Shown here: piece by piece, positions 6,608-62,697 of the stretch
Layout: the number at the start of each line of letters is the position of its first letter
Numbering within the stretch: the first letter of the stretch is position 1
Source of the DNA: Halobaculum rubrum
GTDB lineage: Archaea > Halobacteriota > Halobacteria > Halobacteriales > Haloferacaceae
Reading direction: 5' to 3'
NCBI RefSeq assembly: GCF_019880225.1
Contig: NZ_CP082284.1
Coordinates: forward strand, 558,001-622,000
DNA: 64,000 nt
Made by a program: the position numbers and the translations under genes
The notes under the pieces: generated by a model
Seen by the model: only the letters and a program-made list of their open reading frames with translations
Database searches by the model: none
What the model was told of the DNA's origin: nothing

Positions 6608-9600
6608 TCACATGAAGCTGCCGAGTCCGGTCTGTTCTTGCCCGCTTTTGACCTCCTCCCAGGACATTCCGAGCGCCTCGATGATGCGAGCGATCGGGCC
6701 CTTGAGCGTCTTGTCCAGCATCTTGTCCCAGTCGACCGCGAACTCCTCGGGCACCTCGTCGGCGTACTCGAAGCAGATCACGTCCGGGTCGCGCTTGAAC
6801 TCGCCGTACAGAGGGTCGGTCTGCGGGTCGAGTCCGCGTTCGTTCTCCATGCGGGCCCAGAAGTCCGGGTGAACCTTCTCCAAGTAGAGGCGCTTGGGCT
6901 TGGACCCGCGCTGGAAGTTCGTGCCCAGCATGAGGTTCGCGTACTTCGCCCCTCGAACCTGGGCGGTGTCGGTGTCGTAGCTCTCCAGACGCTTGCCGAT
7001 GCCGCCGGGGATCCCCACTTCGTCGAGGTCGGCGTCGCCGTCGAGGAAGTTCTGGATCTCTTCGTGCAGGTAGTCGGTGATCTCCTCGGTGTCCTCCCCG
7101 TGGACGATCATCTCGATGACGCGCTTTTGCACGCGCTTGGTGACGGGTGCGATGTCCGAGCGCTTGTACTCGAAGCCGGTGATGTCGATGTCGTCGACGT
7201 CCTTGCCCTCCTTCCAGACGATGTGGCCGGCGTAGCGCTTCTTCTTGCCCGCCTGGAAGAATCTGCGATACAGCTTCTCGAACTCGATCTCGAACCGGTG
7301 CTCCTCGGCGTCGAGCTCCTCGCTCGCGAAGTCGTCGTAGCGGCCGTTGATATGCTCCTCGACGTCCTCGGAGAGCCGGATCACGGCCGCGATCCGAAGC
7401 AGTTCGCGGTCGGACATGTCGGGGTGCGCCGCCGCCATCCCCTCGGAGACACTCGCGTCCTCGACGTCCTCCGTCGAAACGTCATCTAGACTTAACATAA
7501 CCGAATCGGTGTCCCCGTATGTCACATCTCTATTTAGTTCGTTCACCGCCTGTTCGGTGAACTCGATGACGCGTCGCCCCATCGCCGTGATGGCGGCGGC
7601 GTTCTCCTTGTCGTACAGACGGAAGCGGTCCCATCCCGAGACGCCGTACAGCGACTGCCCGACGAACTGGAACGTCCCGTTTCGACCCGCGAGGAGCGTG
7701 TGATTGTCCGCGACGGTGACACAGTACACACCGTTCTCTGCGGAGCTACGGTCGCTGCTGCGGTGCATCCTGAGCGTGTTCTTGGAGCTCTCGGTGCAGT
7801 AGATCCGCCAGGATCCGCTGTCACGATTGTAGTTCGTGGTCAGTCCGAGGTGGGCACAGAGGCGGAGCACGTCGTCGCGGAGTCGCTCGCTCGACGTGGT
7901 GTAGCGCCACGAACTCCCCGACTGGCGGTCGCCGTCTCCGGCGATGAGCGTGTCGAGGAACCGCCGTTTCTGCTCCCCGTTGGTCTCGAAAACGAGGTCG
8001 GGGATCCGCTTCTCGAAGCTGTTCTCGCCGCACAGTTCCTCGAGCGCCTCGCCGAGGAGCTTCGACGTGAACTGGTAGCCACGCTCGTCGACGTACGTAT
8101 CGAACCCCATCCGTTCGAGGAGGTCGCCGATCGCGGCGTGGTCGGACTGGCCGCCGTCGGGGGCCGCGGTCTGCGCTATCTTGACCGTCGTCGCGGAGCC
8201 ACGCAGGTTATCTCCGAACGCCTTCTCCTCGGAGGTGTAGACGTTCCCTTCCGTGATGTACCACGCCAACAGATCGAGGAAGTCGTCCCCGTCGTACGTC
8301 CGCGGGATCCACTTCCGATTCGGCTCGCTGTGGACGGAGAACTCCGAACAGACGGAGTCCAGGTACTCCCGGTGTTGCTCGAACTCCTCGGCCGAGAACA
8401 CGTAGCCGGTCGTACCGAGGTCGTTCCTGACGACCTTCCTCGGGTAGTATCCGAGCTCGGCCGCGAGCGTGTGGCCGTGAACCTCGTTGTTCGCCCACAC
8501 CTCGTACTCGCCGTCGAGCAGGCGCGTGAGGTCGACCTCGTCGACGTCTTCCCCATCCGGGCCCGACCAGTCGTGGGGGAGCTGATAGTTCGTCGCGCGA
8601 TCGAGGTCGCCGGCCTCGACGAATCGATAGTCGTCCTCGTCCCACGAGATGCCGTTCGACTCGTCTTTCCTGACGAGCATCCGGTGGTTGGGCGTGACGC
8701 GGAAGTCGATCTTGTCCGTCTCGATGTCGACCAGCTCGTCGTCGTAGTCGGGATACGCGTGCGTCTCGACGACCGGCTTGGATTCCATCTCCATCGTCTC
8801 CGGGTCGAGCGAGTACACCTCGTCGCCGACGTCGAGGTCGGTGATATCGCGGACGCCGTCCGGCGTGACGACTTCGGTGTCCGGGGTGAAGCAGTTCATG
8901 ATAACCTTCGTCGCGGCCTGCTGCCGGTCGTACTGCTCGTACGCGTCCGACCCGGGGTCGTGGTCGTCGCGCTCGCCCTTCAGGCGCTCGCGCTCGGTGA
9001 GCAGTTCGTCGACCATCTCGCGCATCATCCCGTCGGGCTCCTTGCGGAACCGCGTGCCGTTTGGCGCCCGGTACGTCTCGCCGTCGAAGGACTCGGGGTC
9101 GTCGACGATCGTCTCGGGGCTGGCGTTGATCGTCACCATGCACATCGGGTAGAGGCTCTTCAGGTCGAGCACCGACACCATCTCCTCGACGCCGGAGATC
9201 GGCTCGAAGACGGCGCCGCCCTCGAACTCCTCGCTCGCCTGTTGTCCCTTCGTCGGGAGGACGAACTGGCCGAAGGCGTTGTGCAGGACGTACATGTCGA
9301 CCGCGTCGCCGGGGGTCGGCGCGTCCTCGAGCTGACAGCCGACGAACTTGCGCGCGTCGTCCCAGAACGCCACGATGTTTTGCTTGCGGTCGATCTCGAC
9401 GCACAGCTCCACGTCGCGGACGTTGTACTTCAGCAGGCGCTCGGGCTCCTGCTCCCACAGGTCGCCGATATCGCCCGTGTACCGTTCCTTCCCGACGTCG
9501 AGTTCGAGTTCGCCGACCGCGTCGAGGCGGTACGACTCCAGCTCGGAGAACTGCGTGCGCTGGTAGGCGTACAGGAGGTCGAAGACGACACGGCCCTTCA

Positions 9601-10690
9601 CGTCTGGACCGCCCCAGCCGGAGCGCCACGTCTCGTTCACACGGGAGAGACGGTCGGGAGAGAGGTCGTACTCGCTGGCGCCGTCGAGCACCTCACAACG
9701 GTCCATGAAGTACGGCGCGTCGAAGTCCTCGAAGTTCCAGCCCGTGAGCACGTCCGGGTCCGTCTCATCGATGTACGAGACGAACGCGTCGAGCATGGCG
9801 TCCTCGTCGGCGAACGTCCGTACCTCGATGTCACTGTCGGCCCCGCCGATCTGCTCGTAACCGTCGAGCGCGGCGGGAGCGTCGACACCGCCGACGGGCG
9901 CGTCGTACAGCCACGCGACGTACTCGTCGCGATAGGAGTCGTGGGAGGTGAGACAGACGATCGGCTCTTCGCCGTCCTCGGGGAAGCCGTTGCGGTCGTC
10001 GACCTCGATGTCGAAGGTGTTCACCCGGATATCCGCCTCGACATCCGCCGGTTCGAGGTGGTCGGGCGTCACCTGCAGTCGGCCTCGGCCCTCGCCCTCG
10101 CGCGCGTCCAGTCGGCGTTCCTCGACGCGTACCCCCGAGGTGACGCCGTGATCGATGAGAAAGCGGTTCGGGAACAGGATGTCCGCCTCGTACGTGCGCT
10201 CGAAGTCGTCGCGGATCTGGCCGACGTCCCGCGGCGTGCGCGCGACGACCTTCGACACGGGTTCGCCGCGGATGGACTCGAAGCGCTCGCCGTCCGGTCC
10301 CGTTTCACGAGTATCGAGGATCACGTCGTACTCCTCCGAGAGGGTCCGCCCCTCGATGTCGGCCGTCGGGACGTAGAAGTACGGCTCCGTTCCGAGCAAG
10401 CGGACGTGTTCGGGCTCGTTGTCGGCGGTCCGGCCGAACACGTGAACGACCGGGTACTCCTCGGCACCGGTGCCCTCGACGGTGTAGTCGACCGCGGTGA
10501 CCATGAGCTCGACCGTCCCCTCGGAGTCGGGAACGACGATGTCCTCTCGGTCGACGACCGCGCTCACGTGTCCCTGCCCAGTGCCCGCGACGTGCGCCGC
10601 CTCCTCGTCGGGGCGGTCCCCGTGGCCGTTCCCGTCGTCGGCGTCCCCGCCGCCGGCGAACCGGTCGAGGCCCGACTGCGAATCGCTCAT
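6608..10690 (-). CDS. polB: Family B DNA polymerase with intein (PolB)
   Basis: A 1360-residue precursor of the replicative/repair B-family polymerase; removing the 413-residue intein (residues 600-1012) leaves 947 residues, normal for haloarchaea. The exonuclease domain has FDIEVD (Exo I, about residue 225), TGWNFEDFDAPYF (Exo II) and YNVRDVEL (Exo III), so proofreading looks intact. The polymerase domain has DLKSLYPMCM (motif A, about residue 508), KVIMN/SLYG (motif B, split by the intein) and YGDTDS (motif C, residues 1058-1063). The C-terminus GLGSFM resembles a PCNA-interacting tail (QTGLGSFM). A TATA-like TTTTTA lies about 27 nt upstream. Codons 1052-1071, around motif C, are AT-rich and unlike the rest of the gene. 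Confidence 0.97.
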   Translation of the reverse strand: MSDSQSGLDRFAGGGDADDGNGHGDRPDEEAAHVAGTGQGHVSAVVDREDIVVPDSEGTVELMVTAVDYTVEGTGAEEYPVVHVFGRTADNEPEHVRLLGTEPYFYVPTADIEGRTLSEEYDVILDTRETGPDGERFESIRGEPVSKVVARTPRDVGQIRDDFERTYEADILFPNRFLIDHGVTSGVRVEERRLDAREGEGRGRLQVTPDHLEPADVEADIRVNTFDIEVDDRNGFPEDGEEPIVCLTSHDSYRDEYVAWLYDAPVGGVDAPAALDGYEQIGGADSDIEVRTFADEDAMLDAFVSYIDETDPDVLTGWNFEDFDAPYFMDRCEVLDGASEYDLSPDRLSRVNETWRSGWGGPDVKGRVVFDLLYAYQRTQFSELESYRLDAVGELELDVGKERYTGDIGDLWEQEPERLLKYNVRDVELCVEIDRKQNIVAFWDDARKFVGCQLEDAPTPGDAVDMYVLHNAFGQFVLPTKGQQASEEFEGGAVFEPISGVEEMVSVLDLKSLYPMCMVTINASPETIVDDPESFDGETYRAPNGTRFRKEPDGMMREMVDELLTERERLKGERDDHDPGSDAYEQYDRQQAATKVIMNCFTPDTEVVTPDGVRDITDLDVGDEVYSLDPETMEMESKPVVETHAYPDYDDELVDIETDKIDFRVTPNHRMLVRKDESNGISWDEDDYRFVEAGDLDRATNYQLPHDWSGPDGEDVDEVDLTRLLDGEYEVWANNEVHGHTLAAELGYYPRKVVRNDLGTTGYVFSAEEFEQHREYLDSVCSEFSVHSEPNRKWIPRTYDGDDFLDLLAWYITEGNVYTSEEKAFGDNLRGSATTVKIAQTAAPDGGQSDHAAIGDLLERMGFDTYVDERGYQFTSKLLGEALEELCGENSFEKRIPDLVFETNGEQKRRFLDTLIAGDGDRQSGSSWRYTTSSERLRDDVLRLCAHLGLTTNYNRDSGSWRIYCTESSKNTLRMHRSSDRSSAENGVYCVTVADNHTLLAGRNGTFQFVGQSLYGVSGWDRFRLYDKENAAAITAMGRRVIEFTEQAVNELNRDVTYGDTDSVMLSLDDVSTEDVEDASVSEGMAAAHPDMSDRELLRIAAVIRLSEDVEEHINGRYDDFASEELDAEEHRFEIEFEKLYRRFFQAGKKKRYAGHIVWKEGKDVDDIDITGFEYKRSDIAPVTKRVQKRVIEMIVHGEDTEEITDYLHEEIQNFLDGDADLDEVGIPGGIGKRLESYDTDTAQVRGAKYANLMLGTNFQRGSKPKRLYLEKVHPDFWARMENERGLDPQTDPLYGEFKRDPDVICFEYADEVPEEFAVDWDKMLDKTLKGPIARIIEALGMSWEEVKSGQEQTGLGSFM
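7478..7537 (-). other. AT-rich recoded patch over polB motif C
   Basis: The 20 codons covering LNRDVTYGDTDSVMLSLDDV are about 42% GC (25 of 60 bases) inside a gene that is otherwise very GC-rich. They use CTA, AAT, AGA, ACA, TTA, AGT and CTA, which are rare in all neighbouring genes, while the protein sequence is normal. The centre is the D1062-S1063 junction (7505/7504), a classical polymerase intein insertion site that is empty here. Confidence 0.85.
7655..8893 (-). mobile_element. Intein with DOD homing endonuclease in PolB motif B
   Basis: A 413-residue in-frame intein interrupts KVIMN|SLYG, the insertion site in polymerase motif B. It begins with Cys (CFTPDTEVVTPDG, block A), has a block B TPNH and ends VADNHTLLAG...FVGQ before Ser+1. 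Dodecapeptide motifs LLAWYITEGN and FLDTLIAGDGD mark a LAGLIDADG homing endonuclease, apparently full length with acidic residues at both positions (Glu in the first, Asp in the second). The last two residues are Gly-Gln instead of the canonical His-Asn. Gln-terminated inteins that splice are known (for example a Pyrococcus abyssi PolII intein), so splicing is plausible but atypical. Confidence 0.93.
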
Positions 10691-61893: not shown

Positions 61894-62102
61894 TCGGATC
61901 GACGCTCGGGCACCAGTCAGATAGCGTTGGCCCTCGGCACCGGACGAGTTGCCGTGTGGAAGTCGCTACGACGTTCGGAGTGTCGTCGACGGGACGGATT
62001 CCGCCTCGCAGCATCTGAACATATCCCGCGTGAAACCAGATGGCGTTGGACAATCTATTTCCAGAGACCCGTCGTTTTCCCGCGACTGCATCCGCGTCAT
62101 TT

Positions 62103-62126
62103 GAATATATAATTTGCACCAAATTA
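62103..62126 (+). promoter_or_regulatory. TATA box with overlapping perfect palindromic operator
   Basis: GAATATATAAT (62103-62112) is a strong TATA element and overlaps TAATTTG-CAC-CAAATTA, a perfect 7-bp dyad with a 3-nt spacer (62110-62116 and 62120-62126), ending 31 bp before the HTH gene ATG at 62158. A protein bound here would block the promoter, which fits autorepression by the HTH protein. Confidence 0.7.
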
Positions 62127-62157
62127 TTTGAGCTGTCGGATCCAAGAGCCAGTACGG

Positions 62158-62697
62158 ATGGCTCAACCTAATTCGGGGTCGTGGACGGAGCGTCTGAGCG
62201 GGCGTGAGCGCGTTCGGCACGTCGTGGAGCTGCTGGACAAGCCAACGCCGGTGCAGGAGATCGCAGATCAGGCGGACGTCTCGCGCGCGACAGCCGACGA
62301 TGAACTCCAGCGACTGCAGAGTGACGACTGGGTCACGGAAACGACGGTCGACGGGACGAAAGCCTACGACCTGAACCCCGTCCGGATGCTCTTCGACGAA
62401 GTGACGGACCTGATCGAGGCTCACTCACGTGACGAACTGGAGAGCCAGCTCACGGAGCTGAAGGAGGAACAGGAAGAGCTGGCGACGGAGTACGACGTTA
62501 GTTCACTTGACGAGTTCCGGGAGCAACTCGCTGACGAGGAACTCTCGGCTGCGGAGCTTCGTGAGCGTCGCAACGTGATCGCCACGTGGGAAGCGATCAA
62601 TACGGAACTCGGGCTCGTGAAACACGCCCTCCAACTGTATGATGATGTTATCGAGCTCTCTTCACCGCGGACCGACTCTCCCTCGACACTCGCCTAA
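62158..62697 (+). CDS. HTH regulator of a two-gene module (DUF7342 family)
   Basis: A 179-residue protein that I recognise as the haloarchaeal DUF7342 pattern. The N-terminal winged helix is RERVRHVVELLDKPTPVQEIADQADVSRATADDELQRLQSDDWVTETTVDGTKAYDLNPVRM; it is followed by a Glu-rich coiled coil (DELESQLTELKEEQEELATEYDVSS) and a helical C-terminus. Codon use is clearly less GC-biased than neighbours. The stop overlaps the next gene's ATG by one base. With a palindromic operator at its promoter it behaves like a self-repressing antitoxin. Confidence 0.85.
   Translation: MAQPNSGSWTERLSGRERVRHVVELLDKPTPVQEIADQADVSRATADDELQRLQSDDWVTETTVDGTKAYDLNPVRMLFDEVTDLIEAHSRDELESQLTELKEEQEELATEYDVSSLDEFREQLADEELSAAELRERRNVIATWEAINTELGLVKHALQLYDDVIELSSPRTDSPSTLA

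Follow-up and report, generated by a model that had tools for sequence, protein, structure and literature searches.

In theory, resistance at the target site is one of the chief checks on homing elements and gene drives, and function-preserving resistance alleles in essential genes are able to block the nuclease of homing gene drives. Such gene-drive alleles belong to synthetic, mostly Cas9-based systems and arise within a few generations, whereas the haloarchaeal alleles described here are natural and are found across species. Target resistance to homing endonucleases is already known in kind, and to our knowledge natural examples of target-site resistance are few. The WHO elements of Torulaspora resemble the present case in that an essential gene, FBA1, is targeted by a LAGLIDADG homing endonuclease, allelic differences near the cut give resistance, and homing speeds the evolution of the targeted end of the gene (PMC7282813). 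However, in that system the resistant end travels with an element that sits beside the gene. The haloarchaeal sites are instead intein sites inside replication genes, and at motif C it is the empty alleles that are recoded most strongly.

Two haloarchaeal intein systems are also comparable. In the portions of the work on the Haloferax volcanii polB intein that we draw on, the endonuclease is active in vivo and changes to the target lower homing, although those portions deal with engineered non-synonymous changes and not with natural synonymous variation (PMC3024317). Judged by sequence, this intein presumably sits at YGD^TDS (the caret marks the insertion point), the site at which the Haloferax loci of our data set hold a 437-aa intein. 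The mcm inteins of Haloferacales, as covered by the sections of PMC10643990 used here, similarly occupy neighbouring sites in a replication gene for which natural empty alleles exist. Escaper point mutations arose in plasmid targets under an mcm endonuclease, and one class of resistant alleles carries Pro instead of Ser. Unlike the pattern reported below, the resistance discussed for that system acts at the level of splicing, the endonucleases examined cleave their target even when it has several synonymous changes, and these sections describe neither a GC3 valley nor serine family switching. No prior report of GC3 valleys or of serine family switching at intein sites was found in the literature covered, which mostly excluded subscription journals.

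The locus examined here lies in a window of 64,000 nucleotides from Halobaculum rubrum, which is the whole stretch of DNA analysed and to which all positions refer. The polB gene (6608..10690; this and all polB features given below are on the minus strand) encodes a family B DNA polymerase of 1360 aa including an intein, and its neighbours, named from their proteins, are presumably sufC and sufB. Within polB is an AT-rich recoded patch of 20 codons (7478..7537; LNRDVTYGDTDSVMLSLDDV), which read CTA AAT AGA GAT GTG ACA TAC GGG GAC ACC GAT TCG GTT ATG TTA AGT CTA GAT GAC GTT. The patch noticed in the preliminary description is real, with a GC content of 0.42 and a GC3 of 0.40 compared to 0.90 for the gene. 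It is the lowest GC3 window of polB, and none of 5000 codon permutations of the gene reached this value. Away from the patch, every 20-codon window has a GC3 of at least 0.70 (the lowest being 0.70), and GC3 is 0.87 in the exon between the intein and the patch and 0.91 in the exon after it. Amino-acid composition was rejected as the cause of the dip, which stays after residue-specific correction for codon use (own value −0.59).

The patch also stands out on a genomic scale. Windows of 60 nt with a GC content of 0.417 or less form only four clusters in the 64 kb, and the patch is the one located inside a conserved gene. We extended the scan, by total GC and with ORF ends excluded, to a genome sample made up of the window together with 20 pieces of 20 kb each (464 kb, 257 ORFs); apart from the patch, no high-GC3 ORF in it contains an internal window of this kind. 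Three further low-GC windows sit in ORFs with a GC3 of 0.61–0.76, and one more apparently reflects a false, non-coding N-terminal over-extension. Other genes of this genome therefore seldom contain similar patches, and chance is ruled out as the cause by the codon permutation together with the genome sample. A search of a plasmid collection gave only two distant matches. Outside the suf/polB area the window has a single low-GC cluster (62069-62166), which is apparently intergenic and includes a TATA-like stretch, TTTGAATATATAATTTG, that precedes the ORF at 62128-62697.

The position of the patch relative to intein sites is precise. Its midpoint lies within 4 nt of the YGD^TDS junction of polB motif C (7510..7511), where the insertion point falls between Asp and Thr (window 7511/7510). 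It had initially been described as centred on the Asp-Ser junction, but haloarchaeal motif C inteins insert at YGD^TDS. An uninterrupted YGDTDS is encoded at 7502-7519, and there is thus no intein at this position in the H. rubrum allele, although 27 of 143 haloarchaeal polB genes, one of them from a congener, do have an intein there. The expected protein is retained, such that the target is changed in the DNA while the YGDTDS motif is intact. The site is therefore empty as first proposed, but polB itself is not intein-free, given that a 413-aa intein with Hint and LAGLIDADG_3 domains had been overlooked at MN^SLYG (7655..8893). This intein begins 118 nt from the patch, and its site is occupied in 55 of the 143 genes.

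We consider it likely that the patch marks an intein target that is empty at present and has been recoded without change to the protein, reflecting recurrent synonymous escape from homing endonucleases. It appears to be one strong case of a wider haloarchaeal pattern in which silent changes are located exactly at the intein sites of essential genes, and these changes probably evade recognition by the DNA-cutting enzyme of the intein. Of the three readings offered in the preliminary description, namely a co-conversion scar, the trace of a lost intein, and recoding that hides the site from homing, the last is the best supported, on the grounds of valleys at intein sites, occupancy dependence and serine family switching. 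The patch may be the trace of a lost intein, but such a loss is not needed as an explanation.

The wider pattern was examined in a codon-by-codon alignment of 80 named haloarchaeal polB genes, which was enlarged with 63 family genes to a total of 143. In the GC3 deviation profile of the 80 genes, the deepest minimum falls exactly at YGD^TDS (−0.24) and the second-deepest exactly at VIMN^SLYG (−0.21), relative to a standard deviation of 0.049 for the whole profile, and codon entropy peaks at the same two sites. The valley is about ±10–12 codons wide, or 60–75 nt. Its depth at YGD^TDS depends on occupancy among the 143 genes, with a deviation of −0.23 in 116 empty alleles compared to −0.11 in 27 occupied ones, and the proportion with a deviation below −0.4 is 24% for YGD^TDS when empty and 4% when occupied, compared to 0.02% for random windows. 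Matched close pairs yielded the same result, in that GC3 is higher in the occupied allele in 18 of 23 pairs (+0.30, P 5e-5), where close pairs and clusters of relatives control only partly for the phylogenetic non-independence of species. For MN^SLYG, there is no GC3 difference between occupied and empty alleles in matched pairs (P 0.23), and at the rare polB sites LDLK^SLYP and LTGW^NFED the average profile has no valley. We also considered whether an intein at MN^SLYG favours resistance at the adjacent YGD^TDS site, and found no general effect (38 pairs, P 0.74). One genome has, besides a full polB, another polB-like gene that is partial, may be located on a mobile element and adjoins a motif C type intein end (L210, G155:C82).

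Synonymous divergence is likewise concentrated at intein sites. Within 12 codons of YGD^TDS, matched close pairs differ in the codon used for the same residue at a frequency of 0.52 when one allele is occupied and the other empty, 0.41 when both are empty and 0.31 when both are occupied, compared to a background of 0.22 in the rest of polB and 32% in the highest control window. Occupied-empty pairs also exceed every control window at the other three polB intein sites. Repeated cutting and resection could in principle raise local A/T-biased mutation during repair, without selection, and such mutagenesis would agree with valleys that are centred on cut sites, span some 60–75 nt and are strongest in empty YGD^TDS alleles. 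However, 61% of the differences at four-fold sites of the valley are transversions (A-T 15%, and A-G only 9%), which makes this process less likely and is a mutation spectrum that does not fit cytosine deamination. Repair mutagenesis also predicts neither repeated two-base serine switches in invariant motifs nor the existence of empty congeners that lack a valley, and we regard it as quite improbable.

Serine codons provide a further record of change at these sites. A switch between the AGY and TCN families needs two base changes, and a stepwise route passes through another residue. On the polB gene tree, such switches number at least 41 at Ser718 (YGDTD-S), at least 29 at Ser580 (DLK-S) and at least 13 at Ser668 (MN-S), and 12 were counted at the GTGK-S serine of mcm. 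Invariant serines located off the intein sites of polB and mcm have switched 0–10 times. Those in polB that have switched 7–10 times are Ser425 (TWR-S-GWG), Ser207 (RFE-S-IRG) and Ser317 (CLT-S-HDS; L053 numbering); these are possibly unsampled intein sites, and no intein was seen at them in our data.

The distribution of the AGY family also depends on occupancy. For the +1 serine of three sites, AGY is used in 0/14, 2/55 and 0/18 occupied alleles compared to 60/129, 19/88 and 13/52 empty alleles, respectively. Within clusters of relatives, the occupied alleles carry AGY in 9 cases combined where 26 are expected, and none of 5000 permutations gave a count as low. H. rubrum itself has an AGC serine codon at the empty LDLK^SLYP site (9155..9157), a codon family that is absent from the 14 occupied alleles of this site. 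Empty alleles with AGY have deeper valleys at Ser580 (DLK-S) in paired comparisons (P 2e-4), and there is a trend in the same direction at YGDTD-S (P 0.085), but AGY alleles are not deeper at MN-S (P 0.21). All 37 methanogen polB genes sampled, which are without inteins, use TCN at both Ser580 and Ser718, and AGY therefore looks derived. The rarity of AGY in occupied alleles would also be expected under co-conversion, since the bases beside the cut are then copied from the donor.

The pattern recurs in a second replication gene. Across 70 mcm genes, GC3 dips most strongly (−0.24) in a valley whose centre is three codons away from the Walker A intein site GTGK^SQ. Synonymous differences between occupied and empty alleles reach 0.45–0.49 at all four mcm intein sites, compared to about 0.2 otherwise. 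In matched pairs, GC3 is higher in occupied than in empty alleles at site 362 (P 0.05), site 401 (P 0.02) and site 335 (P 0.05), such that dependence on occupancy is observed at most of the polB and mcm sites tested.

In PolB the sites concerned fall within catalytic motifs B and C, and in MCM they fall within the Walker A region; a functional signal in codons or DNA, such as slow codons that aid folding or an internal regulatory element, might therefore be suspected. Several controls speak against this possibility. The same motifs of 37 intein-free methanogen polB genes, 23 of which have a GC3 above 0.7, exhibit no valley (+0.10, +0.02) and no raised synonymous divergence, and the Walker A region of haloarchaeal RadA is also without a valley. 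In addition, motif A has no valley on average, and the codons differ among close relatives. Four Halobaculum species in which both polB sites are empty have no valley, which answers the question, raised when the patch was first described, of whether relatives without the intein share it. H. rubrum, with MN^SLYG occupied (−0.01) and YGD^TDS empty (−0.57), has a mirror image in the congeneric MAG QS_6_71_20, with MN^SLYG empty (−0.36) and YGD^TDS occupied (+0.03). In this MAG (L102, match from 5001), a 437-aa intein at YGD^TDS has GC-rich flanks and the empty MN^SLYG is AT-shifted. The valley-free empty congeners and this reciprocal pair indicate that the valley is not needed for motif C function. 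Together with the methanogen control, the congeners effectively refute a functional signal, to which we assign only a very slight probability.

A further alternative is that the patch is a co-conversion scar, consisting either of codons copied with a foreign intein that was later lost or of a segment copied with the neighbouring MN^SLYG intein. Conversion of flanking residues is documented for haloarchaeal mcm in the sections of PMC10643990 considered here, and at LTGW^NFED (reference column 387) the flanks are AT-shifted in occupied but not in empty alleles (−0.32 at −10 to −5 codons, 9 genes), which is the pattern expected of co-conversion. At YGD^TDS, by contrast, it is the empty alleles that have the deeper valley. 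The low-GC, Haloquadratum-like donor that had been proposed for the motif C patch was also rejected. No donor for the patch was found among 167 family genomes, in which the best match outside the genus is 75% over 101 nt. In valley windows the nearest cross-lineage neighbours are no closer than they are in control windows, nor does flank similarity track intein similarity.

Exchange of sequence has nonetheless taken part in the history of this locus. The MN^SLYG intein is carried by four Halobaculum species, which form one clade in codons 640-760 (support 1.000, or 0.947 without the patch). In trees of codons 110-640 and of codons 760-985 they are dispersed, and every residue that is exclusive to these carriers falls within reference columns 662-722. 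The approximate exchanged segment (7346..8911), which is common to the four carriers and discordant with the rest of polB, comprises the intein, flanking exon, the patch and a form of the exon in which a long insertion follows motif C. Similar long exon variants are present in Haloarcula, Halomicrobium, Halorientalis and Haloferax larsenii/elongans. The restriction of the carrier clade to codons 640-760 suggests that the exon segment with the long insertion variant and the recoded site moved together with the MN^SLYG intein, and thus that co-conversion or recombination is part of the history of the patch. To this extent the initial proposal holds, in that the containing exon segment moved between Halobaculum species, but it is not supported for the AT-rich codons. 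In H. rubrum, the exchanged segment is AT-rich only within about ±10 codons of the empty site and is GC-rich in the remainder, and the carriers, despite sharing the patch clade, differ from one another at 49% of shared-residue codons in the patch. These two observations indicate that recoding is local and continuing. A co-conversion scar is accordingly an unlikely origin for the AT-rich codons.

Synonymous escape would proceed as follows. The homing endonucleases of polB inteins are expected to cut intein-free alleles at YGD^TDS, and alleles silently changed around the cut would be cut less well and so could persist without an intein. Codons ending in G or C already predominate in these genomes, and escape would therefore move to A/T-ending codons and to the other serine family. 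The predicted outcome is a GC3 valley and a doubled synonymous divergence with an unchanged protein. In Halobaculum, the exon segment bearing the recoded site also appears to have spread among species along with the neighbouring MN^SLYG intein. We infer reduced cleavage through the recoded codons from these sequence comparisons, and the escape reading has several weak points. Occupancy of MN^SLYG has no effect on GC3. The valley of 60–75 nt is wider than the footprint of the enzyme, as LAGLIDADG-type enzymes recognise 14-40 bp according to the parts of PMC3024317 used here. These enzymes also tolerate some synonymous changes, as reported for LAGLIDADG homing endonucleases in the sections of PMC3024317 and PMC10643990 on which we rely. 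Further points against escape are the lack of a mean valley at LDLK^SLYP, the 7–10 family switches at Ser425, Ser207 and Ser317, and the fact that co-conversion likewise predicts few AGY codons in occupied alleles.

More broadly, it seems reasonably probable that homing recurrently selects for synonymous resistance at the intein targets of haloarchaeal replication genes, which would leave codon-bias valleys and forced two-base serine switches in invariant catalytic motifs. This would be a natural, clade-wide counterpart of gene-drive resistance alleles, and past exposure to inteins would be readable in intein-free genomes. If so, codon bias and synonymous rates near intein sites would not be neutral, and the recoding could serve as a marker for past intein exposure. 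Many haloarchaeal genomes would then record replicated escapes at known sites with known enzymes, and escape, re-invasion and codon-level resistance would become directly testable.
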